DNA from: Acidobacteriota bacterium
Lineage (GTDB): Bacteria; Acidobacteriota; Thermoanaerobaculia; Multivoradales; Multivoraceae
Assembly (NCBI GenBank): GCA_026708285.1
Contig: JAPOVF010000314.1
Span: forward strand, 1-42,552
Length of the DNA stretch: 42,552 nt
Direction of reading: 5' to 3'
Shown here: positions 8,267 to 29,718 of the stretch, piece by piece
How positions within the stretch are numbered: position 1 is the first letter of the stretch
How the letters are laid out: each line of letters begins with the position of its first letter
Translations under genes and position numbers: made by a program
Notes under the pieces: generated by a model
Database searches by the model: none
Told to the model about the DNA's origin: nothing
The model's input: the letters and a program-made list of their open reading frames with translations, nothing else

Positions 8267-9316
8267 TTACACGAGGTTCGAGTCACGCGGTCGCAGGTTT
8301 GCTGCGAGGGCGGGGCGTCCGCTCTCGCTGCGGCGACGACGGGACCTGGGCGGTGTGGATGCAGCCCGCGGTCGCACCGCGACCTGGTCGGTGAGCCATG
8401 CGTTGTCCTCGGCCTGCCAACTCCGGAGGAGGAGAGCCTCCTCGACATAGCGGCGACCCTTGAGGCGGGTCATGTGAAGAACGAGGGAGATGCCGTCGAC
8501 GACGCTGCGGCAGACCACCTCCCAGGGGAGTTCGCCGGCCTGCATGGCGCAGCTGGCCAGACGTGAGAGCGCGGCGCGGGCATTGTTCGCGTGGACGGTG
8601 GTCAGGGAGCCGCCATGGCCCGTGTTGAGGGCCTGGAGGAGGTCGGCGGCCTCCTGACCACGAACTTCTCCGACCACGATGTGATCGGGTCGGTGTCGGA
8701 GCGAGTGCCTGACTAGGTCCCTGATGGTCAGGGAGCCCTCGCCTAGCTCGCGAGCTTCGAAGCGGACAACGTTCGCCTGCTCGATGCGGAGTTCTAGGGT
8801 GTCCTCGATGGAGACGATGCGCTCGTGATGCGGCAGCAGTTCGATGAGGGCGTTGAGGAGCGTGGTCTTGCCGCTGCCCGTGCCGCCGCTCACGAGGATG
8901 TTCTCGCGGTTGCGGAGGGCGTCCTTGGCGGAGTCAACAATGGCTGGGGTGAGGCTGCCGTTGTCGACCAGGTCCTGCACCGAGAAGGAGCGGTTGCCGA
9001 AGCGCCGGATCGTGATCGCCACGTGGGGCGCGGCGGGTGGTGTCGTGATGGCGACGCGCGAACCATCCGGGAGGCGGGCATCAAGGGCGGGGTCGGTCTT
9101 GGGATCGAGGCCCAGGGGTCGAGCGATGCTGATGGCGGCTCGGCGGAGCGCCCTGTCGTCAAGCTGGGGCGCTTCGACCTGTTCGAGGCCGGCGCCGGCG
9201 CGCTCGGCCCAGGCGTTGCCGGGGCCGTTGATCATGATCTCGGTCACTTCCGGATCCTCGAGGAGCGCTTCGAGGCCGGGGAGGAAGGTCTTGAGGGTGG
9301 CGAGGCTGTCGGTCAT
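8267..9316 (-). CDS. trbB: Type IV secretion ATPase, TrbB/VirB11
   Basis: A 349-residue hexameric traffic ATPase of the VirB11/TrbB/CpaF family, which sits on the inner face of the membrane and powers pilus assembly and substrate transfer. Walker A GGTGSGKTT lies at residues 144-152, the Asp box EDTLEL at 171-176, Walker B IVVGE at 213-217 and the His box NTGHGGSLTTVHA at 231-243. All catalytic motifs are intact and the length is usual. It follows the coupling-protein gene by 41 bp, a gap that holds an operator-like palindrome. It is last in the transfer gene order, whereas trbB is first in classic trb operons. Confidence 0.93.
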   Translation of the reverse strand: MTDSLATLKTFLPGLEALLEDPEVTEIMINGPGNAWAERAGAGLEQVEAPQLDDRALRRAAISIARPLGLDPKTDPALDARLPDGSRVAITTPPAAPHVAITIRRFGNRSFSVQDLVDNGSLTPAIVDSAKDALRNRENILVSGGTGSGKTTLLNALIELLPHHERIVSIEDTLELRIEQANVVRFEARELGEGSLTIRDLVRHSLRHRPDHIVVGEVRGQEAADLLQALNTGHGGSLTTVHANNARAALSRLASCAMQAGELPWEVVCRSVVDGISLVLHMTRLKGRRYVEEALLLRSWQAEDNAWLTDQVAVRPRAASTPPRSRRRRSESGRPALAANLRPRDSNLV

Positions 9317-13107: not shown

Positions 13108-13761
13108 TCAGAAGTCGACGACCTGGTCGGCCTGGATGTAGGTCACGAGGATTCCCATCGGATTGACGGGAAGGAGATCCGGCGGGACCTCGGGCAGGAA
13201 GGTGAACTGGAGCGAAACGCTCCAGCGCTCGCGGGCGACCTCCTCGCCATCCTCGAAGATGACGAGCTCGAAGTCGGCGGCCGCGCTGTGGGGCGGCTCT
13301 GGTTGAGGCCGAATGGACAGGGCGACCCGCTCGACCTGGCGTTCCTGTTCCGCGAGGCCGGCCGCGACGGCCGCGACGGCCTGGCCGTCGCGCCGGAAAG
13401 CAGCGTCGGCGAGGCCGGTGGCCAGGAAGCGGAGCGACCGGGCCCAGGCCGTCTGAGCGGTTGCCGTTCGTCTGGAGAAGTGGTCGGTCACGAAGCTGGC
13501 CAGGAAGTACTTGGTGGTCGGGTCCATGGGATCGGCGACGGCCTCGACGGCCTCGTACGCGAGGGCCTCGGCGCGGCCCACGTCGTCTACGCGGATGACG
13601 ATCGGCTTGGGGAGCTCGACGCTGGAGAGCCGGACGACGGCGACCAGGAGAAGAAGAAGGACGCCCCCGAGGGCGTAGCTGGCGAGGCGGAAGTGTCGGT
13701 TGGAGACGACAAGCTCGCCCCACACGTCGGCGAACTCCTTGCCGGGGTCCGGTTTGCTCAT
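13108..13761 (-). CDS. trbF: Type IV secretion inner-membrane protein, TrbF/VirB8
   Basis: A 217-residue bitopic protein with a short cytoplasmic N-terminus (KEFADVWGELVVSNRHFRL), one membrane helix (YALGGVLLLLLVAVVRL, about residues 29-45) and a periplasmic NTF2-like domain ending NPMGILVTYIQADQVVDF, a typical TrbF end. It scaffolds the assembly between the inner membrane and the VirB9/VirB10 core. The start overlaps the trbL stop as ATGA, so translation is coupled. Confidence 0.88.
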   Translation of the reverse strand: MSKPDPGKEFADVWGELVVSNRHFRLASYALGGVLLLLLVAVVRLSSVELPKPIVIRVDDVGRAEALAYEAVEAVADPMDPTTKYFLASFVTDHFSRRTATAQTAWARSLRFLATGLADAAFRRDGQAVAAVAAGLAEQERQVERVALSIRPQPEPPHSAAADFELVIFEDGEEVARERWSVSLQFTFLPEVPPDLLPVNPMGILVTYIQADQVVDF

Positions 13762-14993
13762 GCCGGGAGCCCCCCTTTGAGGGGTGCCGCCGCGACTCGG
13801 GCGGGAGCGGCGACGATGCGGCCGGCCATGAAGGCTCCACCGACGAAGCCGGCGCCGTCGCTGCCGGCGCCGACGATCATGCCGGCAATGTCCCCGATCT
13901 TGAGGATGGAGACGATGGCGCAGATGATGACGCCGAAGACGGGGACGAGCCAGACGCCGGTAGCAGCGGTCATCGTCTGGACGGTGAAGTCCGTGGCCGA
14001 GAGGCCGCGGGAGAAGCCCATGATGATGCGGGTCCAGAGGCCGATCATGGCCGCCGCGATCGCGCTGTAGAGGCTGTATTGCAGCATCGCCTTGAACCAG
14101 CCCCAGAAGAGGAAGTCCATCTTCGGGACGACCATGAAGGGGATGAAGAGGGGGCCAAGGGTGACGAGGACTGCGACGGCGATCTTGGCGAAGATCACCT
14201 GGGCGAGGGCGAGGGCGATCACCACGACCATGCCGAGGACGAAGCTGCCCAGGATAGCGGCGAGGAGAGCGAGGTGGGTCACCTGCCGTCCTCCGGTCGT
14301 GACGGCGTTCCAGAGGTTGGTTGAACCGGCCTGCTCGGCGACGATGTTGTAGTGGTCCCTGGCCAGCACCATCACCGTTCCCATGCCTTGCGCGAGGATG
14401 TCGGTGCCGAAGAGTGCGGTGATCGCGTCGCCCTGCGCGGTGATCAGCTCGGGAAACGAGAAGCCGCCGGCGAAGGGTGTGGCGTAGAACTGGAGTAGGC
14501 CCAGCGGGAGGGAGAGGGTCAGGATGAACTTGATGAGCTCCCAGGCCTGGAAGGTGCCGCTCAGGGCGATTCGAGCGCCGGTCCAGACGATGAGAATGAG
14601 AGCGATGCCACGGGCCAGGCCATTGCCCCATCCGAGGATCGTGTTCTGCGCGGCGCCGGAGAGCACGATGTTGATGGCTGTGTCGACGAACTGAGGAAGC
14701 TGGCCGACGTTGTTTTCGTTGACGTTGGGCGTCCCTGGTTGGGCGACGGCAGGGGGAGCGGTCAGGAAAAGGATGGCGGCGAGCGCCAGGAAGGGCGCTA
14801 GCGGTCGATTGGCGGCTCTAGATCCGGAGCCTGCGCACGGCTTGCGCCGCGAGGCGGAGGACGCCCAGGAACGCCGCGTAACGCGAGCAAGGGGCGTCCG
14901 GCGTGGGCAGGGCTTGCCTGGGCGACCTTGAGCGGAGCCAGCCCTTGCGTCACGAGGCGTGGAGGAAGATCTTGAGAGGGAGGGCATCACCAT
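13758..14993 (-). CDS. trbL: Type IV secretion polytopic membrane protein, TrbL/VirB6
   Basis: Up to 411 residues. The ATG at 14993 follows the trbJ stop by four bases, but the first 65 residues are arginine-rich and look non-coding. The real start may lie nearer the signal-like segment PLAPFLALAAILFLTAPPAV (residues about 66-85). After a periplasmic stretch come six or so membrane helices, including IALILIVWTGARIALSGTF and VFGVIICAIVSILKIGDIAG, then an alanine- and glycine-rich tail. VirB6/TrbL forms part of the DNA path across the inner membrane. It ends in an ATGA overlap with trbF. Confidence 0.87.
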   Translation of the reverse strand: MVMPSLSRSSSTPRDARAGSAQGRPGKPCPRRTPLARVTRRSWASSASRRKPCAGSGSRAANRPLAPFLALAAILFLTAPPAVAQPGTPNVNENNVGQLPQFVDTAINIVLSGAAQNTILGWGNGLARGIALILIVWTGARIALSGTFQAWELIKFILTLSLPLGLLQFYATPFAGGFSFPELITAQGDAITALFGTDILAQGMGTVMVLARDHYNIVAEQAGSTNLWNAVTTGGRQVTHLALLAAILGSFVLGMVVVIALALAQVIFAKIAVAVLVTLGPLFIPFMVVPKMDFLFWGWFKAMLQYSLYSAIAAAMIGLWTRIIMGFSRGLSATDFTVQTMTAATGVWLVPVFGVIICAIVSILKIGDIAGMIVGAGSDGAGFVGGAFMAGRIVAAPARVAAAPLKGGLPA

Positions 14994-14997
14994 GCGG

Positions 14998-15894
14998 CTA
15001 GTTCAGGCGGAAGGCCCGGCTCCAGGCGTAGCCCTGGCCGCGGACGCGGTTCTGAGCGCGGTCCGCTCGTCGGCGCTCCGCGCGTTCGGTGGCAATCCAG
15101 GCCTCAAGCTCTTCGCGGTGCTCCCGGACCTGAGCGGCCTGGGCCAGCATGTCGCGGGCGGCGTTGTGGGCGAGAAGCTGGGCTACGGCCATTTCGATCT
15201 CGGTCTTGGTGAGTGCGTTGGCATGCTGCTCCTGGGCGAGGGCCGTCTCGCTGAGGTTCGTCTGCTGGCGACTCCGCTCGACGGACGCGGAGGCGTTGCC
15301 GATCAGCTCCACGACGCGTTCGGCGCTGTCGAGGACGAGGTAGTCGGCGACAAGCGCGCGGTCCGAGCGTTGGCGCTGCGCGAGCCAGTTGTTGGAGGCG
15401 CTCGGGACGTCGCGGAAGGTGCGGGTGTACCGTTGTCGGGAAACGGTGTCGGCCGTGGCGAGCTCCTGCCGGAAGTGGGTCAGCAGGGAGTTGGCAGTGT
15501 CGTCCTGCATGTTGGCCATGGCGTTCAGGACTTGAAGTGGTGGACCGTTGAAGTCGCCAGCCCAGGCAACACCGGTGGCATCCTCAAGAAGGTGCACGGG
15601 ATCGGTGCTCAGATCCTCGAAGCGCTCGACAAGGGCGCCGACGCGGCCCATTGCCTGATCGAGGTCCTGCTGGATCTGGTCCTTGAGTTCGAGCACGGTG
15701 TTCGCGGCCTCGGCCGCGGTGGCCGCGGTTTCGACGGCGCTCAAGGCGTTTTCGGCGACGTTGAGGATCTGGGTGATCTCGCTGGCGACGCCGGAGAGGC
15801 TGCCTAGCAGGCCGGAGGCGGGGAGAGCCGCCAGGACCACAAGGAACGGGAGGAGAGCGGCAACGGCGCGGCGTAGACGGGGACGGTTGGTCAT
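14998..15894 (-). CDS. trbJ: Type IV secretion pilus-associated protein, TrbJ/VirB5
   Basis: A 298-residue exported protein. The signal peptide covers about residues 1-28 (AVAALLPFLVVLAALPASG). The rest is almost entirely helical and alanine-rich, with LLGSLSGVASEITQILNVAENAL near the start and a coiled coil (NLSETALAQEQHANALTKTE) later, as in TrbJ proteins. VirB5/TrbJ is a minor pilus component that helps contact the recipient. The start at 15894 overlaps the trbI stop (ATGA), which decides it against longer frames. Confidence 0.85.
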   Translation of the reverse strand: MTNRPRLRRAVAALLPFLVVLAALPASGLLGSLSGVASEITQILNVAENALSAVETAATAAEAANTVLELKDQIQQDLDQAMGRVGALVERFEDLSTDPVHLLEDATGVAWAGDFNGPPLQVLNAMANMQDDTANSLLTHFRQELATADTVSRQRYTRTFRDVPSASNNWLAQRQRSDRALVADYLVLDSAERVVELIGNASASVERSRQQTNLSETALAQEQHANALTKTEIEMAVAQLLAHNAARDMLAQAAQVREHREELEAWIATERAERRRADRAQNRVRGQGYAWSRAFRLN

Positions 15895-17213
15895 TGATCG
15901 ACTCCTGTGGATTGGGGTGGAAGGAGAAGGTCGGCGGTGAACCAGACGCGCAGGCGATGGCCCGCGCGGATGGTGATGGTCGGGAGGCGGTTGAGGAAGC
16001 GGTCCATGATCTGCATTCCGGTTTCCGAGAAGCTCCGTGCAGCACCCAGCTGGAACTGCTCCTGGGTGCCGGCGTAGGGATTGGTGCCGGCGGCCGCGAG
16101 GCCGCTCAACAGGCCGACGCCGCCGGCGGCGAGGAAAGTGCTGAGGTAGTGGCGATCGACCTGGTCCTTGAGCGCGCCTTCGCCGATCTGGTTGAGGCCC
16201 TGGAAACGCAGAGCGGCCCACCGGCCGTCGGGGAAGACGAGTCGATGGAAGCCGACGGCGAGTCGACTCTGGTTCTGGTCGCGGACCGCCTGAACGGTAC
16301 CGATGAAGCGGCTGCCGCGGGGGATCAGGACGGTCTGGCGGTCGGCGCTGTAGAAGGGCACGGCGACGACGGCCGCGACGGGGCTTGGGAAGTCTCCGCT
16401 TAGCTGGGTGACGAGGATGGCTTCTACGAAGGAACCCTCGTGGATGCGGTGGAAGCCGTCCGGGTCGTCGGGAGCGACGACGCGTTCAGGGCGTTGGTAG
16501 GTGGGGAGATTGTTGGAGTCCGGGAGGGGAACGTCCAGGGTGCCACCTCGGGGCTCGGTTGCGGCCTCGAGAAGGGCGTTGACCGGCGACTGTTGCTGTC
16601 TCGCGGCGGCGCTGATGGCGTCGTAGAGGTTGTCGAGCCGGTTCCGGGAGGCTGGTGCGGCTTCGGCCGCAGTGGCGGCAGCCACGCCGGCCGCGTCGGC
16701 GTCGCGGACGGAGTGAGCCACAGGGGCGGCGAGCAGGGAGCGTTGCCGGCGCTCGATGGACTCAAGGTGGAGCTTGAGACGAAGCTCAGCCTCCTCGGGA
16801 GAGAACACGTCGGACTCCCAGGGGTTGTCCTGCTCCTCGGGAGTGATGCCGGCGAGGCGCTCGAGGATGCTCTGGCCGGGATCCGGATCCGGCTGCAGGA
16901 GGTTGAGGTTGGCCTCACGAACCGCCTCGCGTTGGGCATCCAGTTCTTCTTGCGCTAGTTCGAAGGCGGCTTGTCGCCGCTGGTTCTCGACCTCGCTGCC
17001 GAGGCGGTCCTCGACGTCGGCGTCGACCGCGCCCTGGTCGACCATCTCCTGCGTGGGATCGGGGGTGTCCTCCTCGCTGCCGGCGCCGCCGCCGATGGTG
17101 GCGGCGACGATCACGACGACGAGGACCACGGCGAGGATGGCGACCACGCGGTTCATGAGGTTGGCCGGCAGTGCGCCGGCCGGCTTCGGGACGATCTGTT
17201 TCCAGTCGGGCAT
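15891..17213 (-). CDS. trbI: Type IV secretion core protein, TrbI/VirB10
   Basis: A 440-residue protein that spans both membranes and gates the channel. A short cytoplasmic N-terminus is followed by one membrane helix (VVAILAVVLVVVIVAATIGG, about residues 27-46). A variable, glutamine- and alanine-rich periplasmic linker comes next, then the conserved beta-barrel domain with IHEGSFVEAILVTQLSGDF, VLIPRGSRFIGTVQAV and GDGWLQ-like neighbours in trbG. The C-terminus ends RAGHRLRVWFTADLLLP. It begins three bases after trbG and overlaps trbJ by ATGA. Confidence 0.92.
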   Translation of the reverse strand: MPDWKQIVPKPAGALPANLMNRVVAILAVVLVVVIVAATIGGGAGSEEDTPDPTQEMVDQGAVDADVEDRLGSEVENQRRQAAFELAQEELDAQREAVREANLNLLQPDPDPGQSILERLAGITPEEQDNPWESDVFSPEEAELRLKLHLESIERRQRSLLAAPVAHSVRDADAAGVAAATAAEAAPASRNRLDNLYDAISAAARQQQSPVNALLEAATEPRGGTLDVPLPDSNNLPTYQRPERVVAPDDPDGFHRIHEGSFVEAILVTQLSGDFPSPVAAVVAVPFYSADRQTVLIPRGSRFIGTVQAVRDQNQSRLAVGFHRLVFPDGRWAALRFQGLNQIGEGALKDQVDRHYLSTFLAAGGVGLLSGLAAAGTNPYAGTQEQFQLGAARSFSETGMQIMDRFLNRLPTITIRAGHRLRVWFTADLLLPPQSTGVDQ

Positions 17214-17216: not shown

Positions 17217-18092
17217 CTACTGGAGGGGGTCGGGTTCGTCGAAGGTCCAGGTGACGCGTTGCTTCCCGATCTGGAGCCAGCCGTCGCCTATGACGCGACG
17301 GACGACGTAGAGGCCGTCCTCGGTCAGGTCGTAGGGGACCAGGGAGGGTTGTCCGTCCTTGCGTTCGTAGAGGGCGGGAGACTCTTGGGAGAGGCTTCGC
17401 AGGTAGGTGAACTGGCCGTCGTGCCACATCCCTTCGACCAGGAAGGGCCAGCGCTTGGCCTTGTCCTGGAGCCGGTAAGGAAAGCGGACGCGAGTGGGAT
17501 ACTCGGCGCGGAAGCCGTTGACCTGGTCGACGGCGTCGGCCTTGGCCGCGGCGACCTCCTCCGCGGCGGTCCGCCGGTGATCGGCGGCGGCCTCGGCAGC
17601 TGCCCGGGCCATGGCCCGGTAGGAGGCGACCTGGTCAGCGGCGACGAATGCCGGCCGGTGGGCTTCGGTGGCGGCAGAGGCGGGCTCCGCCTCGCTGTCG
17701 TCCAGTCGGACGATGAGGTGGGGCGGGGTGTCGGAGGACTCGGAGACCAGGAAGGGGTAGATCCGGCCGGATTCACAGACGAGGGCGACATTCGTGGCGA
17801 CGCCTTCGTCGGTGGGCTTGAGGAATGCGACGTTGGCACTGCCGCTGAGGTGCCAGTACTCCAAGTCGCCGACTACGAAGTCGAGAATGTTCTCGCCGGC
17901 CGGGAGGGTGATGACGGTCGTGTGTCGTACGCGGGTGCTGATCCGCCAGACCTCCTCGGTGTAAGGATCGATGCGGAGAATGTGGGAGTCTTGGGCGACC
18001 AGGGGAAGAGCGAAGAGGAAAGCGATGGCAGCCGTGATGGCGGGCGGGATGTACAAGATGTGTTTACCTCTGTTGGTTTGCCAGGACCTCAA
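17217..18092 (-). CDS. trbG: Type IV secretion outer-membrane core protein, TrbG/VirB9
   Basis: A 291-residue exported protein. The signal peptide ends near ALPLVAQD (about residue 34). The N-terminal domain holds THVI-type segments such as HTTVITLPAGENILDFVVGD. The C-terminal domain holds RVRFPYRL and ends GLYVVRRVIGDGWLQIGKQRVTWTF, a VirB9/CagX hallmark. VirB9 forms the outer ring with VirB10. The 5' end overlaps trbE by 29 bases; a start inside this overlap is likely, but which codon is used is unclear. No separate VirB7 lipoprotein is seen next to it. Confidence 0.9.
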   Translation of the reverse strand: MRSWQTNRGKHILYIPPAITAAIAFLFALPLVAQDSHILRIDPYTEEVWRISTRVRHTTVITLPAGENILDFVVGDLEYWHLSGSANVAFLKPTDEGVATNVALVCESGRIYPFLVSESSDTPPHLIVRLDDSEAEPASAATEAHRPAFVAADQVASYRAMARAAAEAAADHRRTAAEEVAAAKADAVDQVNGFRAEYPTRVRFPYRLQDKAKRWPFLVEGMWHDGQFTYLRSLSQESPALYERKDGQPSLVPYDLTEDGLYVVRRVIGDGWLQIGKQRVTWTFDEPDPLQ

Positions 18093-20487
18093 GGGCGTCG
18101 GCGAGACCGTGTTGAGCGACGGCCTCGGCCCTCCGTTCGCCGTCGACGGGTGAGCTGGTGTAGAGCCAGTAGGACTCGGGATCGACCTCTAGGCGGACGA
18201 CGCCGGCTTCGTTGGCGCGGCGCAGGTAGAGCTCGCGCTTGGGCAGGAGGCCGCGGATGGTCTGCATTTCCGTGTCGTTCAGGCGGAAGGTCGTCTGAAC
18301 GCTGTCGGGGAGGTCGGGATTGGCCAGGAAGAGCTTGGTGGGGAGGGATTCGAGCAACGCCTGGGCGCCCTCGGTGTCGGTGAGGTCAACCGCGCTCTGC
18401 GTCGAGAGGACCAGTGCGGCGTTGCGCTTCCGCCAGGTCTTTGCGGCCTCGGCCAGGTAGGTCAGGACCGCGCGGTCGTTCAGATACCGCCAGGCTTCAT
18501 CGACCACCATGAGCTTCACGCGGCCGGCCTCGGCCGGGTCGTCCAGGGCGAGGCGGAGGCGTTCGAGGAGGAAGAATAGGGCGGCCTCGCAGAGGTCGTC
18601 GTGCTCCGCGGCGCCGGCAAGGTCGATGACCTGCCAGTCGGCGAGTTGGAGGGTGTCGTCTCCGCCACCGTCGAAGAACTTGGCCCAGACGCCGTCGCTG
18701 TGCCAGCGGCTCATGGCTGGCCACATGGAGGCGGGCATCGTGCTTACCAGGGTGGAGAGGGTGCGCTCTCGGGGGTCGGCGGCCTTGTAGAGGTCCTCCA
18801 CGCGTTCGCGGATCTCGGTGGTATCCGCGCCTTTGAGGGTGTAGCCGCCGATGCGGAGAAGGCGGCTGACCCAACCGGTGAGGAAGCTGAACGTGCGCTC
18901 GCCAGGAGGGAGGCTGAAGGGCTTTAGCGCGAACTCGTCGCCGGCGGCGTCGGGGTTGAGTTCGAGGTAGCCACCGCCGATGAACTGAGTAAGCCAACGG
19001 TAGGAACCGCCCAGGTCGAGGACGAGGACGCGTGGCGCGTAGTGCTGGGACTGAACGAGTAGGAAGTTCAAGGCGAAGCTCTTGCCGGCTCCGGTGGCGC
19101 CCAGGATGAGGGTGTGGCCCACGTCGCTGCCGCCGAAGAGGTCGTAGTGGTAGGGGGTGCGCCAGGGCGTTTCGAAGATGGCCATGGCCGGCTTTCCGAG
19201 GTGCTTGCATTCGGTCTGGCCAGGAGGCGGCCCGAAGAGCGGTGCCAGGCAGGCGGCGACGCCGGCGCTGCTGAACACGGTTCGGATCTGGCGCTTCCGG
19301 GGTTGCCCGGGCAAGCGGCTCCACCAGGCGGGAAGCTGCCCGAAGCCTTCGCGGATGACCTTGGCGTCGGCGGCGCCGAAGATTCGGAAGAGGTCGGCGT
19401 CCAGGGCCTCGATCTCGGCCAGGTCGTCGCCGTGGAGCGCGATGTTGAGGGAGATGTCGCCGTAGGCAACGCCTTCTGTCTCGAGTTCGACGAGAGCGTG
19501 AGCGATCCGGGCCGATTCAGCGTCCGCCGCGGAGTCGACCATGGCCGCGGCCGTACCCTGGGCGTCCTGCATGTGGGCGACCATCGAGTAGCGCTTGCTG
19601 AAGTAGTGCCGCTGCACGCTCCGGATCTTGCGCCGGGAGGCGGCGAGGGGTTGCGGCCGCCACTCGAGCGAGATCGTGACGGTTGCTTCGAGGCGGTAGA
19701 GCTCCGCCAGCAGGTTCGGTCTGGCCTGAACGGGCGGCGAGGTCAGGTTGTAGAGGATCAGGGGCTGGCCATCGAGGCGCAGGAAGCGCCGCTCGGCTTC
19801 GAGTTGGGAGAGGGCGAGTCGCCAGTTCAGCGCGCTCGGGATGTGGTCGCCGTGCCAGGGTTGACCAGGCCGGTTCACGAGTTCGGAGAGGACGCCGGTG
19901 GCTTCGGCAGCGGGTAGCAGCCGAAGGGGCGTCACGTCGGAAGCGAGGGCGGCGGAGGCCTCGACGAGCTGGCGGAAGCGTTCGGCCGCGGCGGTGACGT
20001 GGCGCCGGAGGAAGGCGCACTCGTCCGGCTTGGTTCGGTTCTTGATCCACTCGTGGGCGGCCGCGAGGACGCCGGCGTTGCCGGAGTGCGCGTTTCTCTT
20101 GAGCTGGGCGTCGTGCGACCACACGACGTAGGCGCGGAGGTCCTGGACGCGGCGCTCGAGAAAGCGGCGCCGCTTCTCCTGGGAGATGGCGGCGATGCCG
20201 TTCAGGCCGTCGATCGGCGCGAGGCGTCCGGGGCGGCGCAGGAGGTAGAAGTAGAGGCGAGTGTGGGGATCGAGGCTGCTGAGGAGGCGGAGCCAGCGGC
20301 TAAGAACCTCGTCCATCTGCTGCGGAGTGCGGCCGTCGACGACGGCCGGGGAGAGCGTGGCGACAGCGAGAAGCTCGCCGTTGCGGGTAAGGCAGAAAGG
20401 ATGGTCCTGGAGCCAGCCCCAATAGGGAAGCTCCTCGGCGAGGCTGCCGGCGGCCTCGTAGTCGGCGCGTTCGGCGTCCAGGTTCAT
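18064..20487 (-). CDS. trbE: Type IV secretion ATPase, TrbE/VirB4
   Basis: An 807-residue ATPase, the largest energiser of the secretion machine, bound to the inner membrane and recruiting pilin. Walker A is GATGAGKS at residues 463-470 and Walker B LMVVDEAWRYL near 650, followed by STQSAVDL, a standard VirB4 segment. The N-terminal half (GWLQDHPFCLTRNGELL..., RRKIRSVQRHYFSKRYSMVAHM) is the CagE_TrbE_VirB domain. The start at 20487 overlaps the trbD stop (ATGA), and longer frames are rejected. All catalytic motifs are intact. Confidence 0.94.
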   Translation of the reverse strand: MNLDAERADYEAAGSLAEELPYWGWLQDHPFCLTRNGELLAVATLSPAVVDGRTPQQMDEVLSRWLRLLSSLDPHTRLYFYLLRRPGRLAPIDGLNGIAAISQEKRRRFLERRVQDLRAYVVWSHDAQLKRNAHSGNAGVLAAAHEWIKNRTKPDECAFLRRHVTAAAERFRQLVEASAALASDVTPLRLLPAAEATGVLSELVNRPGQPWHGDHIPSALNWRLALSQLEAERRFLRLDGQPLILYNLTSPPVQARPNLLAELYRLEATVTISLEWRPQPLAASRRKIRSVQRHYFSKRYSMVAHMQDAQGTAAAMVDSAADAESARIAHALVELETEGVAYGDISLNIALHGDDLAEIEALDADLFRIFGAADAKVIREGFGQLPAWWSRLPGQPRKRQIRTVFSSAGVAACLAPLFGPPPGQTECKHLGKPAMAIFETPWRTPYHYDLFGGSDVGHTLILGATGAGKSFALNFLLVQSQHYAPRVLVLDLGGSYRWLTQFIGGGYLELNPDAAGDEFALKPFSLPPGERTFSFLTGWVSRLLRIGGYTLKGADTTEIRERVEDLYKAADPRERTLSTLVSTMPASMWPAMSRWHSDGVWAKFFDGGGDDTLQLADWQVIDLAGAAEHDDLCEAALFFLLERLRLALDDPAEAGRVKLMVVDEAWRYLNDRAVLTYLAEAAKTWRKRNAALVLSTQSAVDLTDTEGAQALLESLPTKLFLANPDLPDSVQTTFRLNDTEMQTIRGLLPKRELYLRRANEAGVVRLEVDPESYWLYTSSPVDGERRAEAVAQHGLADALEVLANQQR

Positions 20488-20774
20488 TCGATGAGATGGA
20501 GGTGCCAGGTGGAGGGCTTGCCGGCGTCGTAGCGGGTTCGGCTGGAGCCGGCCTTCGCCAGGATGGAGAGCATGTTGGGATCGCGTTTCCAGGCGAGAAA
20601 GCCGGCCACGTAGAGGACGGCGAAGATCAGCGCTCCGGTGATGATCGAGTTGAGGCCGTTCCAGACGCCCAGGCCGAGCGTCATGGAGAGGAGAAACCAC
20701 CGGCGCTCCACGCCCAGAATCTTCATGGGGCGTGAGAGCGCCGGGTGGCCGTACCAGGGTGTCTCGCCGCGCAA
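20484..20774 (-). CDS. trbD: Type IV secretion membrane protein, TrbD/VirB3
   Basis: A 96-residue protein with the VirB3 pattern: a polar N-terminus (YGHPALSRPMKILGVERRW), then two closely packed membrane helices (about residues 26-62) and a short basic C-terminus. VirB3 works with VirB4 in pilus assembly. It lies six bases from the upstream gene and overlaps trbE by ATGA. Confidence 0.87.
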   Translation of the reverse strand: MRGETPWYGHPALSRPMKILGVERRWFLLSMTLGLGVWNGLNSIITGALIFAVLYVAGFLAWKRDPNMLSILAKAGSSRTRYDAGKPSTWHLHLIE

Positions 20775-23274: not shown

Positions 23275-24678
23275 CTATCCGCGAGTGGGTCCGTCGTCGC
23301 GGCCGTGCGCTTGTTCGGCGATCGCGGGATCGTGAACCGCGTGGCCTTGGGCCTGGTTGGCGAAGCTGTCGGCGACGCTAAGGACGGCCTTGCGCTCGTC
23401 TGAACTGAGCGATTGGGCGTCGATCGCGTGGTTCTGCAGGTCGCCGCGAAGGCCGCGGAAGTCGGCCGTCTTCGGTGTGTAGGCGTTCTGCGAGGCGACC
23501 AAGTGGACGGCCTGGAGGTCGCGGATCAACTTCTCGGTCGGGCGGTCCTCGTTGCCGTTGCGGCGGAGGACGCCCAGCGCGGCATCGGCGGCGCGCGAGA
23601 TGTTCCCGTTGAAGCGGGTGGCGGCTTGCTGTTGTGCCGCTGCTGCCTGTAGAGCCTGAGTCGGATCGAGTTCTTCGCGTCGCTCAAGCTCCGGGCCGGG
23701 CTGACGGTCTTCAGCGTCGGCAGCGGGCTGCTGCGGGGGCTGTTGCTCGCGCTGTTCGATGCGCTCGCGCGCGGGCTCGATCAAGTACCGGGAGATCCGC
23801 TCCGCGTCGGCCGCCGCGCGGTAGATCTCCCTGGGGTCGTCTTCGAGAGCCTTTACCCAGCTAGCGACGTAGGCGGCGCTGTCGTTCTGGGGCTGGTGGC
23901 CCAGGCCGATCTTCTCGCCGGTCATCATCGCGGCGATCTCGGCGCGGAGCTCCTCCCTCGCGTACTCGGGGCTGCCGAACTTCTTGCCGAGGGTGTCGCG
24001 GTTGAGGCGATCGGGATGGCCGGTCGCGTGGCCGAGCTCGTGGATGGCGGTCTGGTAGTAGCTGCCGGTGCTGGGGAACTGGCCGGGTTCAGGCAGGACA
24101 ACTTCGTCGGTACGGACGTTGTAGTAGGCGCGGTCGCCGGCTTGGTGCTTGACGGTGACGCCGCTGGTCTCGATGATGGCGTCGGCTGCGGCGTGGCCCT
24201 CCCATTCGGGGGGAGCCGTGGCGGGCGGTCGCTCGGGGAGGCCGCCGGTCTGTTCGGCGTTGAAGACGGAGTAGGTGCGGACGAAGGGCTTGGGGCGTTC
24301 GAGGACGGTGTAGACCGGTTCGCCGGCATCGTTGAGCTTGGGATTTCCCTGGTCGTCCTTGGCGGGGACGAGCTTCGTGGTGGAGAAGAAGAGGATCTGA
24401 GTGGCCCGTTCGCCGCGTTCAACGTGGCCGCCTGCCTCCCTGATCTGGCGGTAGGTGGCCCATCGGTTGTCGGTGTAGCCCCTTGTCTGGGCGGCGACAC
24501 TGAGGTAGAGGCTGTTGCCTCCCGCGTAGCGTCGGCCGGTTGCGAGGTTCTCCGGAAGGGAGCGCTCGCCGGGCTTCCAGGGCTTCTGGAAGGGGGCGGT
24601 TCCCTCCTCCAGTTGGCGGATGATCTGGCGGGCGAACGTCTTGTGGTACTCGCCGACGCGGTCTTTGGAGGGGGCCAT
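23275..24678 (-). CDS. ardC: ArdC-like antirestriction protein with zincin-like domain
   Basis: A 467-residue protein of the ArdC family. Residues 8-140 are the ArdC N-terminal single-strand-DNA-binding domain (YHKTFARQIIRQLEEGTAPF, LPENLATGRRYAGGN). The zincin-like domain follows, with HELGHATGH at 213-221 and a downstream glutamate in REELRAEIAA. The C-terminal third is glutamine-rich and variable. ArdC proteins protect incoming plasmid DNA from host restriction and are often among the first genes to enter the recipient. Here it leads the transfer operon, after a small gene whose start is missing. Confidence 0.92.
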   Translation of the reverse strand: MAPSKDRVGEYHKTFARQIIRQLEEGTAPFQKPWKPGERSLPENLATGRRYAGGNSLYLSVAAQTRGYTDNRWATYRQIREAGGHVERGERATQILFFSTTKLVPAKDDQGNPKLNDAGEPVYTVLERPKPFVRTYSVFNAEQTGGLPERPPATAPPEWEGHAAADAIIETSGVTVKHQAGDRAYYNVRTDEVVLPEPGQFPSTGSYYQTAIHELGHATGHPDRLNRDTLGKKFGSPEYAREELRAEIAAMMTGEKIGLGHQPQNDSAAYVASWVKALEDDPREIYRAAADAERISRYLIEPARERIEQREQQPPQQPAADAEDRQPGPELERREELDPTQALQAAAAQQQAATRFNGNISRAADAALGVLRRNGNEDRPTEKLIRDLQAVHLVASQNAYTPKTADFRGLRGDLQNHAIDAQSLSSDERKAVLSVADSFANQAQGHAVHDPAIAEQAHGRDDGPTRG

Positions 24679-24679
24679 G

Positions 24680-24919
24680 TCAGAGGCCCGCCTCCATGTT
24701 GGCGTGGAGGAGGTCGGCGAACTCGGCGCTGCCGCCGGTATGATCGAGGAGGCCGAAGCGTTCGGCGAGATCCGGGGAGACAGCGACGAGGATGCCGGTC
24801 GAGAGCGAGGCGTTCAGCGCGGTGGCGAGACCTTCTTCGGTGAAGGCCTCGATTACCGGCTGGCCGTCGATGTCTTGGAGTTCGGTGTCTCCAGGTGCGA
24901 TAAAGTCGATTATCGCCGC
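24680..24919 (-). pseudogene. Small gene lacking its start, directly upstream of ardC
   Basis: A natural-looking minus-strand frame (IIDFIAPGDTELQDIDGQ, then ILVAVSPDLAERFGLLDH and ANMEAGL) ends in TGA one base before the ardC ATG. Upstream, it has neither an ATG/GTG/TTG start nor a ribosome site before it runs into antisense of the recombinase gene. A matching start (TTG ACG ATT ATC GAC TTT, with AGGAG seven bases before) lies at 28967 on the other strand, in the same frame. Joining the two would give a 79-residue protein. The function is unknown. Confidence 0.65.
24897..24917 (-). repeat. Recombination-site-like dyad next to the recombinase gene (inverted copy at 28969)
   Basis: GCGATAA-AGTCGA-TTATCGC (24897-24916) has perfect 7-bp inverted arms around a 6-bp spacer, the layout of a tyrosine-recombinase core site, and ends four bases before the recombinase ATG. 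The 21 bases match 28969-28989, in inverted orientation, at 18 positions, including the whole spacer. Confidence 0.5.
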
Positions 24920-25891
24920 ATGACTGTGCTGCTTGACCGCCCCGGGAGAGTTGTTCGTCGCGACCCTCAGGACTACCCGGAGGTGCTACGCCAAGCCGGT
25001 CCCGCCGCTCTCTTTGCCGCCGACGAGTTCTTTACGGCGAAGCTCCGAAACGCTCACACGCGTCGGGCCTACAAGCGTCCCGTGATGCTCTTCCTCGAGT
25101 GGTGTAGGGATCAGCAGCTAGACCTGCGTTCCGTGTCGCCAGGCGACGCCGCCAGGTTCATCGACAGTCTCAGTTCTGTCTCAGTCCAGAAGCTCGCGAT
25201 AGCGGCCCTACGCCAGTTCTTCGATGTGCTCGTGACTCGCCATGCGGCGATGCTGAACCCGTTTCGCTCTGTCCGCGGGCCGCGCCGCGATACGCGTGAG
25301 GGCAAGACGCCCGAGATCACAGTCCCTCAAGCTCGGCAGCTCCTCGACTCCCTCGACAGTGCTCGTCCAGTCGGGCTCCGCGATCGCGCGATCCTAGGTA
25401 CATTGACCTACACGGGCCAGCGCGTCGGCGCACTCGCCCGACTCCGCCTTCAGGATCTCCGTGACTACGGAGATCGGCGATCGTTCACCTTTCGGGAGAA
25501 GCGTGGCAAGGAACGCGAGATACCCCTCCGGTTCGACCTCGATCGCTGGATCTGCGAGTACATGGCGGCTGCGGTGCCTGCAGGCGATCCGAAGACTGCC
25601 CCACTCTTTCGGACTGTGTCTCCCACCACCGCTACAGGTTTCACGAGTCGTGGCGTTCGGCCGTGGACGATCCGCACGCTTCTCAAACGTCGCCTCCGCG
25701 ACGCCGGCTTACCCGAGATCATCACGCCGCACAGTTTCCGGGTCATGGTAGTCACCGATCTCCTGAGTCAGGGCGTGCCGATTGAAGAGGTCCAGTATCT
25801 CGCGGGCCATTCCCACCCCTCTACCACGCAGGTCTACGACCGTCGCGGCCGCCGCGTCACCCGCAACCTCGTCGAACGCATCTCCGTCTGA
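24920..25891 (+). CDS. Tyrosine recombinase (XerC/D or integrase type)
   Basis: A 323-residue site-specific recombinase. The N-terminal SAM-like DNA-binding domain spans about 30-110 (AHTRRAYKRPVMLFLEWC). The catalytic domain has all expected residues: Arg168 in YTGQRVGAL, Lys194 in EKRGKEREIPL, His271-x-x-Arg274 in HSFR, His297 in LAGHSHP and nucleophile Tyr306 in TTQVYDRR. The ATG at 24920 gives a normal XerC-like length; the frame opens 300 bases earlier, but that part is antisense to the small gene upstream of ardC. No ribosome site is clear. A dyad lies directly before the start, as expected for an attachment or inversion site. Confidence 0.9.
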   Translation: MTVLLDRPGRVVRRDPQDYPEVLRQAGPAALFAADEFFTAKLRNAHTRRAYKRPVMLFLEWCRDQQLDLRSVSPGDAARFIDSLSSVSVQKLAIAALRQFFDVLVTRHAAMLNPFRSVRGPRRDTREGKTPEITVPQARQLLDSLDSARPVGLRDRAILGTLTYTGQRVGALARLRLQDLRDYGDRRSFTFREKRGKEREIPLRFDLDRWICEYMAAAVPAGDPKTAPLFRTVSPTTATGFTSRGVRPWTIRTLLKRRLRDAGLPEIITPHSFRVMVVTDLLSQGVPIEEVQYLAGHSHPSTTQVYDRRGRRVTRNLVERISV

Positions 25892-26341
25892 CGAACACCC
25901 GAGAGCGAGAGCCAATGGCCTCACGCCCCCCAGGACACCCGCAGAAGACGATCCGCCTAGGAGCCCGCGTGTAAGGGTGCTCTCCTCGAGTATCTGGCGG
26001 CAAGCCTGGTGCTCCCTAGGCAAACCTTGGTCGCGTGGCCGAAGAAGGGAGGGCCGACCTGGGACGGAGACGCTGCGAGCGTCGTCTCGGAGCAAGGAGT
26101 CGTCCGAGGTCGCCCTCCCTACTGACTTAGACGCAACGACCGCCGCAGTCTTCGCTTCCTGGGCGGCCATGGGCTGGATTCTCCCGGCCCGATCTCTGGA
26201 GAAGGTCGCGGCGGCCGGGAAGCTGCCGCAACCGAGCAGCTGGTTTCAGCCGCGCGGCGAGGCGATCGAGGAGTACACACCCCTGGCACCGCACCGCAAG
26301 CGGAGATCGAGCCGGGAACGGCCGTCTAGGGCGGCCGCGAC
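25892..26341. other. Noncoding region with long hairpin; possible gene remnant
   Basis: No intact gene is evident. The first part leads to a long hairpin (26046-26120). From about 26106 a plus-strand frame reads naturally for 70 codons (FASWAAMGWILPARSLEK, LPQPSSWFQPRGEAIEEY), without a clear start, and may be the remains of a gene. Confidence 0.35.
26046..26120. other. Long, nearly continuous hairpin; possible structured RNA or replication signal
   Basis: AGGGAGGGCCGACCT (26046-26060) pairs with AGGTCGCCCTCCCT (26107-26120), with one bulged base. After one mismatch, GGACG (26062-26066) pairs with CGTCC (26101-26105). Inside, ACGCT-GCG-AGCGT (26070-26082) forms a tight hairpin, with a further GAG/CTC closure. 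There is no T-run. Candidate roles are a counter-transcribed RNA controlling repA, a single-strand origin, or a recombination site for the nearby recombinase. Confidence 0.5.
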
Positions 26342-26572
26342 TCATTCCGTCTCCCTTCCTTCGCGAGAACCTCCGTTCGTTGTTCCGCCGCCGAACCTTC
26401 TGCCGTCAAGGCCATGCTTGGTGCCATCAGCCCCACGCCCAACCACATGAGCCAACACGAGCAAGAGCGTCTCGTCCGTCCGCCATCGGTCACCTGGGCC
26501 GGGGATCATCGCTCCGACCATCCCTGTACCGAGTACGCCTATCACTCCCAGCACTACGAGCACCTCGATCAT
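26342..26572 (-). CDS. Small membrane protein, second of a coupled pair
   Basis: A 76-residue protein with a single N-terminal membrane helix (IEVLVVLGVIGVLGTGMVGAM) and a polar, glycine-rich tail. Its ATG overlaps the stop of the preceding micro-gene as ATGA (26569-26572). The tail from about residue 50 is low in complexity, so the true end or function is uncertain. It lies downstream of repA and the repeats on the same strand. Confidence 0.45.
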   Translation of the reverse strand: MIEVLVVLGVIGVLGTGMVGAMIPGPGDRWRTDETLLLVLAHVVGRGADGTKHGLDGRRFGGGTTNGGSREGRETE

Positions 26573-26685
26573 CTTGCGCAAGACCCCGCCACCAGCAGCG
26601 CCCCAACCAAGACGTAGAGCACGCCCACCGCGATCGCCACTACGACAATCCCGGCGCGATCCGCGGACGGCAGCCACCCCAACAT
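26569..26685 (-). CDS. Micro-membrane protein, first of a coupled pair
   Basis: A 38-residue protein, MLGWLPSADRAGIVV..., that is essentially one membrane helix (GIVVVAIAVGVLYVLVGALL) ending SCAR. It overlaps the next start by ATGA. Such tiny hydrophobic peptides next to replication genes can be toxins or channel-like regulators, but nothing in the sequence proves this. There is no strong ribosome site. Confidence 0.4.
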   Translation of the reverse strand: MLGWLPSADRAGIVVVAIAVGVLYVLVGALLVAGSCAR

Positions 26686-26812
26686 CAGCCATTCGCCCCG
26701 CCACTTCGTGGCCGATTCGGCTCGCTCTCCAGGCGCTCCATCCGCCTCGGCGCCGGCGTACGCCCCACGATTGCTCTCAGAGATCCCAAGCCTCGGGCTT
26801 CCACGACTCCCG

Positions 26813-26897
26813 TCGCTGAAAACGTACACCAGAGATCGTGCCTTGGTCGCTGAAAACGTACACCCAAAGCGGTGATCCTTCGCTGAAAACGTACACC
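26813..26897. repeat. Three exact 18-bp direct repeats next to repA (iteron-like)
   Basis: TCGCTGAAAACGTACACC starts at 26813, 26847 and 26880, that is every 33-34 bases, about three helical turns. It lies 110 bases downstream of the repA stop. Spacing and identity fit iterons bound by a plasmid initiator. On the other strand each reads TGTACGTTTTCAGCGA, which also looks like multiple end repeats of some IS21-family elements; no partner end or transposase is present. Confidence 0.75.
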
Positions 26898-27010
26898 TAC
26901 CAAGTAGATCCAACTAGACCTACCTAGCAAGTAGCAGCACGATGCACCTGCGGAAGACGACCACGCGACTGGCTATCTGCAAGAACCACAGAGGGGAGAG
27001 AGAGCCCGCG

Positions 27011-28024
27011 CTACCGCGCTACACGACTCCGTCGCGCCGGGATCTTCGGCGTGGTCGGTCCGATCACCAGCGCTCCTGCCCGGTTCTTGTGTCCTCGTCG
27101 GCCAGCTTCCACGCGGTAGTTCAGCCTTGGCCAGACGGCTTTGATCTTCCGTAGCTCCCGCAACGCTCGTCGACGGAACATCTGCACCTCGTTCTTGTCG
27201 TACTGCTCGCTCGGTTGGTCCGCGAACTGTCGATAGAGCACCGGCCAAGTGATCCGTCGTGGCCGGTCCAGACTGAACGTCGCGTAGGTGAGCCACAGGT
27301 AGAGGTCGAGTCCCAGGGGGCACCGCCGCAGCGCTCTGAGCGTCGCCATGTCCACCGGAACCGGCCGACGGAGAATCTCCGCGAAGAAGCCGCTCCCGAG
27401 ACGAACCGTGCTCCCCCACATGCTCGGTGTCTCGGGTGATTCCACTTGCCACCAGAGCTCCGACCGGTCCGCGATCATCGACGCCACGCTTCGCGTGAAT
27501 CCCTCCCGCTCATAGCTCAGCCGGATCGACGCGTTGAAGAGCCGTTCGATCTGATCCCGGAGCCGCGTCCGATCCCCGCGAACGCCCCCGCTCCTGCTAG
27601 TGATCCCCAGCTCCCGCATGAACTCCGCGAGCGTCGCGCCCAGCCGCAGTCTCGCGGACTGGGTCCTCACAACTTCGGTGCAGATCCACGCCAGTAGCAG
27701 GCGTGGGAGCGTGCCGAACGGTAGGCCTGGTTGGCCCGTCGCCGTCACGATCATTGTGTACGGCCCGTTCCTTCGTATGAACTGCCGCTCGTTTCCTCGG
27801 TTTCGACGCGGAAGGGCGCAGAGCGTCAACAGTCGCGCCATGAAGGCCACTTCGACGTGGTCGTACCGCTCTAGGCCACTTTGTCTAGTCGCGGGTAGCC
27901 GCCGAAGCCCCCTTGAGAGCCGGCGCTCGTTCGTCAACACGACTGATAGGGGTCTCATGTGTAGGCCTTCCACCTGGGCGCTCGGCCGAACCATGACCGT
28001 TGCGCGGCTGGCCCAGGCGGACAC
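27011..28024 (-). CDS. repA: Plasmid replication initiator, RepA type
   Basis: About 337 residues from the GTG at 28024, which has an AAGGGG ribosome site; an ATG at 27958 is an alternative. The segment RNGPYTMIVTA, then GLPFGTLPRLLLAWICTEVV and LGATLAEFMRELGI, is typical of the plasmid-encoded RepA C-terminal family (PF04796). Later come RLFNASIRLSY and CPLGLDLYLWLTYA, also family features. Such proteins bind the origin and start replication. The 18-bp repeats downstream are the natural binding candidate. It is divergent from the primase, with a shared promoter region. Confidence 0.88.
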   Translation of the reverse strand: MSAWASRATVMVRPSAQVEGLHMRPLSVVLTNERRLSRGLRRLPATRQSGLERYDHVEVAFMARLLTLCALPRRNRGNERQFIRRNGPYTMIVTATGQPGLPFGTLPRLLLAWICTEVVRTQSARLRLGATLAEFMRELGITSRSGGVRGDRTRLRDQIERLFNASIRLSYEREGFTRSVASMIADRSELWWQVESPETPSMWGSTVRLGSGFFAEILRRPVPVDMATLRALRRCPLGLDLYLWLTYATFSLDRPRRITWPVLYRQFADQPSEQYDKNEVQMFRRRALRELRKIKAVWPRLNYRVEAGRRGHKNRAGALVIGPTTPKIPARRSRVAR

Positions 28025-28040
28025 TTCGCCCCTTTCTCTC

Positions 28041-28076
28041 TTGCGAGGCGAGGTGATGTGTGATAATCATGTTATC
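28041..28076 (+). promoter_or_regulatory. Promoter and dyad operator for the primase gene
   Basis: TGTGATAAT (28059-28067) is an extended -10 box, with TTGCGA (28041-28046) as a weak -35. The -10 lies inside the dyad GATAA-TCATG-TTATC (28062-28076), so a repressor bound there would block transcription. A start point near 28074 would favour the ATG at 28087. Confidence 0.45.
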
Positions 28077-28950
28077 CAACTTCACCATGAGAACTCAGGG
28101 TTCATCCGCTGCGTACGTCCACGTGCTCTTTGAACCGGTTGACTACGTCGCCGTTCTCGCCGTCTCTCGCGGAGTCCCGAAGCGGCCGGCGGTTCTTCAG
28201 CGGATCGTAGTCGCTGGTCGTGTCGCGGGCGAGCGCTATCAAGCCTGGCTGCGCCACCTGAACGCCCAGGGGTACGACCTCTTCCTCGGAGTGAACCCAG
28301 TGGATCCGGTTCGGGGGAGGCGCGAGAAACAAGACATCGCCGAGGTTCGGCGCCTCCAGCTTGACCTCGATGCCGACGGGGCGAACTCCCTTCAGCGCCT
28401 CCTCGCAGACGTTGAGTCGAGGCGCCTTCCGCCGCCAGCAGTCGTAGTTCGCAGCTCTCTCCGCAACTACCAAGTGCTCTGGCACACGACGCGAAAGGCC
28501 TGGACACAGCGGCAAGCCGAGGACGCTATGGGGCGCTTAGCTGATCGCTACGCAGGCGATCATTCCGTGGCCGACGTGGCGCGCGTCATGCGCTTTCCCG
28601 GTTTCCGCAACAAGAAGCCGGGCCGTAAGAACGCCCTTGCGACTTGGACGGACTACGGCGGCGACTCGGTCGATCCGGCGAGCTTCGGTCACCTGCCAGC
28701 CAGCGACGTCCGGGTCAGGTCCAATCCGCAGCCCGCAGGCCGACGTATGGCGGTCCCTAGCGGCATCAGCCAGAGCGAGCGCGATTGGGCGTTTGTGCGC
28801 GACCGTCTGCGGAAAGGCGCTGATCGCGGTGCCCTAGTCGCCATCCTCGAGCAACGCCGTCAGGACAAGTTCAACCCGGCCGACTATGCGTCTCGGACCG
28901 TGCGGAAAGCCGCTGAGAGTCTTCAGCTTGACAGTCAACCTGCGCGCTGA
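28060..28950 (+). CDS. RepB-type DNA primase (archaeo-eukaryotic primase fold)
   Basis: Up to 296 residues. The listed start is a GTG; ATGs at 28069 and 28087 are alternatives, and the promoter position favours 28087. Characteristic segments are GYDLFLGVNPVDPVRG, the metal-binding LQLDLDADG (residues about 99-107), VRSSLRNYQVLWHTTR and ADVARVMRFPGFRNKKPG, all typical of the RepB-like primase family (PF16793) of phages and plasmids. It would prime DNA synthesis of the element, either in replication or after entry as single strand. A TTG start with a good ribosome site follows 16 bases after its stop. Confidence 0.88.
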   Translation: MIIMLSNFTMRTQGSSAAYVHVLFEPVDYVAVLAVSRGVPKRPAVLQRIVVAGRVAGERYQAWLRHLNAQGYDLFLGVNPVDPVRGRREKQDIAEVRRLQLDLDADGANSLQRLLADVESRRLPPPAVVVRSSLRNYQVLWHTTRKAWTQRQAEDAMGRLADRYAGDHSVADVARVMRFPGFRNKKPGRKNALATWTDYGGDSVDPASFGHLPASDVRVRSNPQPAGRRMAVPSGISQSERDWAFVRDRLRKGADRGALVAILEQRRQDKFNPADYASRTVRKAAESLQLDSQPAR

Positions 28951-28966
28951 CGAAAGGAGCCAACCT

Positions 28967-29119
28967 TTGACGATTATCGACTTTCTCGCTGCTACTCAAG
29001 CCGGAACCCCGCGTCGAGCCGGTTCTCAAGGGCGTGGGGCAGGGTGCCGTTTCGTGCGGGGCGATCTGGCTGGAACGGGGACGGGCAGCGGCGTTGAGCC
29101 CACCAGGCTTGGCTGGTGA
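28967..29119 (+). pseudogene. Displaced start of a small gene behind the primase
   Basis: AGGAG (28955-28959) sits seven bases before TTG ACG ATT ATC GAC TTT. The frame gives MTIIDFLAATQAGT and then turns into low-quality sequence, stopping after 51 codons. The first six codons align, in frame, with the start-less gene fragment at 24680-24919. It most likely marks the original start of that gene, separated from it by rearrangement. Alternatively it is a genuine 50-residue gene. Confidence 0.5.
28969..28989 (+). repeat. Inverted counterpart of the site at 24897-24917
   Basis: GACGATTATCGACTTTCTCGC matches the complement of 24897-24917 at 18 of 21 bases. The 6-bp spacer (AGTCGA on the other strand) is identical, while the arms are less symmetrical (4 of 7 pairs) than at the recombinase-side site. 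Confidence 0.5.
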
Positions 29120-29252
29120 GCCACCAACGCAGGGCTTTCCTGTGCCGATCGCCAATCTCGCGCTTGTCGCCTTCGATCCGAGTACAGGAGACTAGGGTCC
29201 GACGCGTCGTGGAGCGAGAAACCAGAACGGGATAGACGATTCGATCCAGCAT
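28992..29252 (-). CDS. Hypothetical protein, basic
   Basis: An 86-residue basic protein beginning MLDRIVYPVLVSRSTTRR, with tryptophan-rich RWWLTSQAWWAQRR in the middle. The ATG at 29252 has an AGGAGG ribosome site, which is half of a TCCTCC-TT-GGAGGA dyad (29266-29279). The codon pattern is fair in the first 50 codons. No family is recognised and it may be only partly real. Confidence 0.35.
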   Translation of the reverse strand: MLDRIVYPVLVSRSTTRRTLVSCTRIEGDKREIGDRHRKALRWWLTSQAWWAQRRCPSPFQPDRPARNGTLPHALENRLDAGFRLE

Positions 29253-29562
29253 GGCGGCCGTCCTCCTTGGAGGAGAGGCCTAGCGCCCGAATTGGCGCCG
29301 GGCCGTCTGTCACCGCCACGTGCAGACATGGAAGGTCCCGCCTATTAGCCGGCTTCGGGAGCTACCCGCCGCCTCTTAGGGGGCTCATGTACTGGGCAGA
29401 CAACCCGAGATCGGCGCCTGCGCTGCGGTCACAGACTGCCAAGTCTACCTGTTCAAGCCCAGGCGAGGGCGGAGGACACTAGCTGTGAGGGTGTTGCTCG
29501 TCGGTCGGGACGTGCCATGAGCTCATCCCTTGCTGCGGAGGGGGTGATCGCGGCGCGGGTGC
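29253..29562. other. 300 bp without a convincing gene
   Basis: Apart from the small dyad carrying a ribosome site at 29266-29279, I see no gene, known RNA or promoter. Confidence 0.35.
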
Positions 29563-29712: not shown

Positions 29713-29718
29713 TTGGTG

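Follow-up and report, generated by a model that had tools for sequence, protein, structure and literature searches.

A putative invertible replication module that separates a small gene from its start ahead of ardC on an acidobacterial conjugative plasmid

Introduction

Does a conjugative plasmid of Acidobacteriota carry a DNA segment whose inversion would supply a start codon to the gene at the head of its transfer operon? The question is raised by contig JAPOVF010000314.1 (assembly GCA_026708285.1; 4.99 Mb in 402 contigs), of which a stretch of 42,552 nucleotides, hereafter the window, was analysed at its full length. In this window a tyrosine recombinase, a replication initiator and a DNA primase lie between two short sites in inverted orientation, and a small gene directly ahead of ardC lacks a start codon. 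A first-pass annotation had proposed that inversion of the segment would rebuild the small gene. We consider it probable, though by no means assured, that the 4.1 kb between the sites form an invertible replication module in which a plasmid resolution system has been reused as an inversion switch. This reading builds on the anatomy of sites and frames, their conservation, the recurrence of the layout with another spacer and the one-site norm of the recombinase family, all of which were observed.

Two inverted sites and a split gene

The features on which the argument turns are as follows.

24897..24917, no strand: site 1, proximal to the recombinase; arms GCGATAA and TTATCGC around the spacer AGTCGA, plus one base; overlaps the 5' end of the small-gene frame
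28969..28989, no strand: site 2, an inverted copy with the identical 6-bp spacer, each inner arm with one imperfect base
24680..24913, minus strand: start-less small gene, 77 codons plus stop counted from the site; directly precedes ardC; in G018 and G009 homologues carry a start of their own
28953..28959, plus strand: AAAGGAG, Shine-Dalgarno (SD)-like sequence of the leader, from sequence reading
28967..29119, plus strand: leader open reading frame (ORF), which begins with TTG and reads MTIIDFLAATQ...; the start half that inversion would join to the small gene consists of its first codons
24920..25891, plus strand: Xer-like tyrosine recombinase, Phage_integrase with a SAM-like N-terminal domain
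28072..28950, plus strand: RepB-type DNA primase, upstream of the leader and in the same direction
23275..24678, minus strand: ardC, with ArdcN and MPTase-PolyVal domains

Both sites are present where the first-pass annotation had placed them. In inverted orientation they match at 18 of 21 bases with a common 6-bp spacer (AGTCGA/TCGACT), and site 1 is indeed the perfect 7-6-7 dyad that had been described, with all eight inner bases of the ATAA-N6-TTAT form. The annotation had allowed that a 21-bp match could arise by chance, a concern that simulation does not bear out: a 20-mer built from both sites fits just these two window positions at ≤3 mismatches and matched nowhere in 100 dinucleotide shuffles of the window, and the best fits to site 1 in 60 windows simulated by a first-order Markov model reached 13–15 of 21 bases, against 18 observed. 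A search of the window for the spacer returned these two sites only, where a shufflon has several sites and alternative C-terminal ends. The recombinase start codon lies 3 bp past the arm of site 1, and the pair with its identical spacer encloses a segment, as in an inversion switch.

The small-gene frame ends at 24680, one base ahead of the ardC ATG at 24678, and contains no ATG, GTG or TTG between its upstream stop (24988) and 24820. Site 2 falls within the first codons of the leader ORF. The start with a ribosome site that had been predicted at 28967 is in frame with the small gene and preceded by AAAGGAG; its codon is TTG rather than ATG.

Conservation among close relatives

Among 21 genomes of the genus, the recombinase occurs at 89–100% identity in five (group A): the window, G001:C107, G014:C4, G010:C109 and G002:C1. 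The relatives are metagenome-assembled genomes of Acidobacteria or Holophagales, with isolate names that we take to point to marine sponges. All five contigs are collinear over the stretch that runs from ardC past site 2, in a single orientation. The layout and the spacer are kept in all four relatives, with both sites in G001:C107, G014 and G010 and with site 1 damaged in G002. The group-A copies are not independent of one another. Site 2 is invariant at 22 of 22 columns across four distinct sequences; in the alignment of 1,104 columns, 63% of them invariant, no other invariant run is as long. Site 1 lies in a 24-column invariant run in three sequences, the second longest of 1,322 columns; for the site 1 region, 15 of 1,300 windows are equally invariant.

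The window and G001:C107 are 99.9% identical over 1-38042 and then diverge, with the junction at 38042.

A second plasmid with another spacer

The same architecture recurs on a second plasmid, G001:C150, the only representative of its lineage. The ends of this contig share a 7,933-bp exact direct overlap, and the plasmid is therefore circular, with a length of 26,505 bp. Its recombinase and that of the window share 65% identity. On this plasmid too the small gene lies ahead of ardC and is free of ATG, GTG and TTG codons between the stop upstream and the site; the frame runs through GATAA-CAGCCT-TTACC, which lies shortly before the start codon of the recombinase. A second, inverted site, again with spacer CAGCCT, lies inside ATG AAC AAG GCC ATA ACA GCC TTT... 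(MNKAITAF...). This start half is divergent from the rep gene, with AGGAGG before the ATG and a promoter-like TTGCAA-18-TATGAT upstream. The common 13-bp core of the two sites has 8.5e-6 expected occurrences on this plasmid under a first-order Markov model. Terminator-like hairpins after the C150 leader were no more frequent than by chance (2 found, 3.8 expected). Spacers are thus the same within each plasmid and different between the lineages (TCGACT and CAGCCT).

The small-gene frame is open and 234 nt long, stop included, in three group-A copies and in C150. When start half and small gene are joined in silico at the spacer, ORFs of 79, 79, 79 and 81 codons result (window, G014, G010 and C150), and all four reach ardC. 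An in-frame start with an SD-like tetramer within five codons is met at 2.2–2.6% of positions; the start half of G014 (AAGGGG) fails that SD rule.

The recombinase family and its single site

The recombinase matches Pfam Phage_integrase (2.3e-23), and R168, K194, K197, H271, R274, H297 and Y306, presumably the catalytic residues, are invariant in seven of seven recombinases. The protein is not XerC or XerD proper, its NCBIfam equivalog scores being 115.9 bits for XerD (cut-off 329.6) and 111.3 bits for XerC (cut-off 335.15). Nor does the locus fit a pdif module run by host XerC/D alone: such modules have no recombinase gene of their own, and here the plasmid's own recombinase adjoins site 1.

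In PLSDB, 160 records carry a relative of the recombinase, all below 60% identity; the primase had no match there at 1e-5 and the small gene none at E 0.01. Sixteen of the 160 records, each under 50 kb and hand-picked from among the matches listed, were read whole. A site was called where the exact spacer of the linked site stood between at least six of eight inner arm bases on either strand, a rule lenient enough to detect site 2 of the window, with 0.007–0.05 hits per record expected by chance. All 16 have a linked site, which in L133 takes a variant form only. Fifteen records have one site, one has two direct copies flanking the recombinase and none has an inverted pair; two more plasmid records, read in part, have one site each. 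The family norm is a single site 0.05–1.1 kb upstream of the recombinase gene. The tyrosine-recombinase-like core suggested by the first-pass annotation is well supported by these relatives, whose genes on other plasmids are linked to a palindrome with a 6-bp spacer.

Elsewhere in the phylum the picture is similar. Six of seven other acidobacterial contigs (three read whole, four in part) have one site and one, G421:C8, has an inverted pair; an eighth, G389:C30 (20 of 282 kb read), showed no site of this form. Among 15 phylum loci with short flanks, 11 have at least one such palindrome. A survey of 396 genomes drawn from the phylum scored five candidates per genome, and its tally is a lower bound. 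In viral contigs, 45 stretches matched in a recombinase-alignment scan, none confirmed as a relative, and two site-pattern scans gave four loci where the recombinase match was no better than E 0.065.

From the one-site norm, the family looks like a plasmid resolution system. Multimer resolution works with one site per plasmid; the window has two in inverted orientation. A single linked site is the norm of this family, and an inverted pair accompanied by a start half is exceptional.

Two further arrangements were seen. In G421:C8 (40 of 51 kb read) an inverted canonical pair with spacer CGTCCT lies around the recombinase gene at ~20861 and ~23084 and is a possible second kind of invertible module. 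On the Paludisphaera borealis plasmid PALBO2 (NZ_CP019084.1), direct sites at 19757 and 22339 with spacer CGCCCT flank the recombinase, and the segment between them is a possible excisable block.

Proposed mechanism

The remaining genes of the module and of the transfer side are listed here.

26810..26897, plus strand: a direct repeat around GCTGAAAACGTACACC in three copies at intervals of 33-34 bp; probable iterons of the replication origin (oriV)
27011..28024, minus strand: RepA_C replication initiator, by domain match
18064..20700, minus strand: VirB4-type ATPase of a type IV secretion system (T4SS), by profile match
17217..18092, minus strand: CagX family conjugal transfer protein, by family match; presumably VirB9-like
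15891..17213, minus strand: TrbI family protein, by family match; presumably VirB10-like
13758..14993, minus strand: TrbL/VirB6 family protein, by family match
9358..11796, minus strand: coupling protein, with TraG-D_C and TrwB_AAD_bind
8267..9316, minus strand: T2SSE family ATPase, by family match; presumably VirB11-like

Beyond site 1, the small gene, ardC and the type IV secretion genes all lie on the minus strand. We propose that the Xer-like recombinase at the edge of the module acts on its own site 1 and on the inverted site 2 with the same spacer. It may be read from a promoter overlapping site 1, since only 3–6 bp separate the arm from its start codon in the window and C150. The sequenced orientation would be OFF: the start half runs out into a short leader ORF, and no start is present on the side with the small gene, ardC and the T4SS. 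Once bound to the arms at site 1 and site 2, the recombinase would exchange strands at the common spacer and so flip the replication module. In the resulting ON state the start half would be joined in frame to the small gene, so that the primase operon would be followed by the small gene, ardC and the secretion genes; in C150, the promoter-like sequence divergent from rep would come to lie ahead of them. Translation of the small gene and ardC is likely to be coupled, given that the stop of the first abuts or overlaps the start of the second. The OFF state, as sequenced, would be the commoner one. Gain of a second inverted site would thus have turned a one-site resolution system into a switch. 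Recombinase activity on both sites, reversibility and the effect on transfer are what we infer from this arrangement.

A bolder version, which we offer tentatively and would not rate as an even chance, is that a heritable switch in its DNA decides whether the plasmid spreads vertically or horizontally. Its own resolution recombinase would turn the replication module relative to the transfer operon, the recombination site would also serve as the first codons of the lead gene, and flipped plasmids alone would translate that gene and express transfer. In the two diverged plasmid lineages that keep the layout, the spacers of both sites have changed in step.

In a 3-kb stretch of the left flank, matches in five relatives consist of a dispersed repeat or short pieces only; a dispersed repeat of ~100 nt, at ~3600-3704, recurs in all five relatives searched.

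Evidence against inversion and alternative explanations

Several observations weigh against an invertible module. All five group-A contigs and C150 are in the same start-less orientation, and pattern scans of the 21 genus genomes, at mismatch limits adequate to catch a flipped junction, found none. The site pair, split gene, frame and gene order behind the claim that inversion rebuilds the gene hold, while the flipped form itself was not seen in the assemblies. The layout is present at one of four group-B recombinase loci, that of C150; G000:C270 carries a different spacer in what is the single site of its contig, and G009:C3 has two direct copies within a duplicated block and an intact small gene before ardC. 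Homologues ahead of ardC in G018 and G009 have different N-termini, their own ATG and no adjoining site, which partly goes the way that the first-pass annotation had named as damaging to its proposal; the N-terminus of the small protein, however, varies in all copies. Most of the small gene is deleted in G002. The ratio of nonsynonymous to synonymous substitution rates (dN/dS) of the small gene is 2.1 between window and G014, 0.49 and 0.50 for each of these with G010, and 1.03–1.25 between group A and C150; selection is weak and function is not supported by this test. The strict absence of a start, claimed for the small gene at the outset, applies to the window, its 99.9% copy G001:C107 and the second plasmid C150, whereas G014 and G010 carry an in-frame GTG two codons ahead of the site codon ATA (V-A before I-I-D-F). 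Finally, a search for promoter-like sites over 24400-29500 of the window found none, the stretch ahead of the primase included.

Arm strength was considered as a cause of the OFF-only assemblies and dropped because strong arms meet at site 1 in group A and the pattern is the opposite in C150. The small protein had no match in Pfam or PHROGs, and its predicted structure (8 rows, mean predicted local distance difference test score 66.6) had none at E ≤0.001, the best being 0.27.

Other arrangements of site and recombinase were seen in these genomes. In G009:C3 a 3.39-kb block bearing a recombinase and what we take to be a BrnT/BrnA-like pair is duplicated at 1-3393 and 29398-32790 of a 71-kb contig with 99.8% identity. 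At ~10671 of G000:C270 a recombinase-side half-site with another spacer is fused to an unrelated frame, read antisense and presumably hicA-like, and resembles a recombination junction. The end of contig G012:C23 has a GATAA-N6-TTATC palindrome (31-46) ~150 bp upstream of a different tyrosine recombinase. Group C recombinases (five loci, 61–65% identical) were considered as further switches and rejected: their loci have one site each and so do their genomes at ≤2 mismatches, adding no switch.

The best surviving alternative, which we nonetheless regard as unlikely, is a fossil: one ancient inversion split the gene, the layout was inherited, and the small gene is now decaying or dispensable. It would agree with this that every one of the six assemblies with the layout has the same orientation, that selection is weak and that G002 has lost most of the small gene. 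The frame has, on the other hand, stayed open at equal length in both lineages and the start halves are kept, and a spacer pair identical within each plasmid yet differing between lineages is not expected from independent drift. In G002 the deletion stops no more than ~2 bp from where arm and spacer of site 1 meet, which is a hint of cleavage there and no proof.

Somewhat less likely again is plain multimer resolution, in which site 1 works, site 2 is a by-product or has another role, and inversion is unused. The family norm of one site upstream of the recombinase gene speaks for this. That explanation leaves a second, inverted site with the exact spacer in both lineages, where 0.005–0.011 chance hits are expected in group-A contigs and C150, and the invariance of site 2 in four genomes; moreover, barring a topological filter against it, a resolution-competent recombinase would be expected to carry out inversion too.

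We think it improbable that there is no switch at all, the small gene being translated as sequenced from a GTG or rare start at site 1 and the leader being a separate peptide. The GTG of G014 and G010 speaks for this; it has no SD-like tetramer by the rule used, such a codon is absent from the window and C150, site 1 offers no SD-like tetramer followed by a start in frame in any of these four elements by that rule, and the sequence upstream on the small-gene strand is antisense to the recombinase. Least probable of all is copy-number amplification by inversion around the origin during replication, turning theta into double rolling circle replication as Flp does on the yeast 2-micron plasmid: the inverted sites do enclose recombinase, probable iterons and RepA, and the C150 arc 5709-11078 encloses rep and recombinase, but the in-frame start in both lineages is left unexplained, and what bears on copy number is contig coverage within a single bin, 18 for C107 and 55 for C150.

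Implications and comparison with known systems

If the invertible module does invert, conjugation would be phase-variable, with most plasmid copies transfer-silent, a few ON and both states heritable, and a plasmid stability system would have become a regulatory switch by gaining one inverted site. The combination also offers a simple sequence test for all plasmids, namely a recombinase-linked site whose spacer recurs in an inverted second site, at the head of a gene that lacks a start. In the literature searched, which left most subscription journals outside, no description was found of a transfer operon controlled by an inversion that supplies a start; this is no proof of absence.

Multimer-resolution recombinases of the Cre/ResD kind have their own palindromic site on the plasmid, normally one. 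The recombinase described here likewise has its own palindromic plasmid site, and differs in having two inverted sites instead of one. Rci of R64 is a plasmid-borne tyrosine recombinase that inverts several segments and varies pilus protein ends. Both systems would involve a plasmid tyrosine recombinase that inverts DNA and alters a gene serving conjugation; Rci reshuffles several segments, whereas a single site pair would here give the head of the transfer operon its start. In invertons, the segments that flip are promoters or regulatory segments, while in our proposal a replication module flips and the site lies within a coding frame. The accessible text of PMC8138268 names Cre as well as the R64 shufflon and Rci, and that of PMC5903667 and PMC8748976 describes Clostridioides difficile RecV switches and invertible promoters on integrative and conjugative elements of Bacteroidales, in which, as we propose here, inverted repeats and a site-specific recombinase govern expression.

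The closest parallel comes from Acinetobacter plasmids, where the accessible text of PMC9947245 reports active pXerC/D (pdif) pairs with identical spacers, oppositely oriented pairs of which invert reversibly and form hybrid sites. The sites described here are likewise opposed on a plasmid, and share the identical-spacer condition of those active pairs, the spacer being common within each plasmid. As far as that text describes them, the Acinetobacter sites are of XerC/D type and resistance modules flip between them (PMC9947245), whereas here the plasmid has its own recombinase and the site lies inside a start-less frame.

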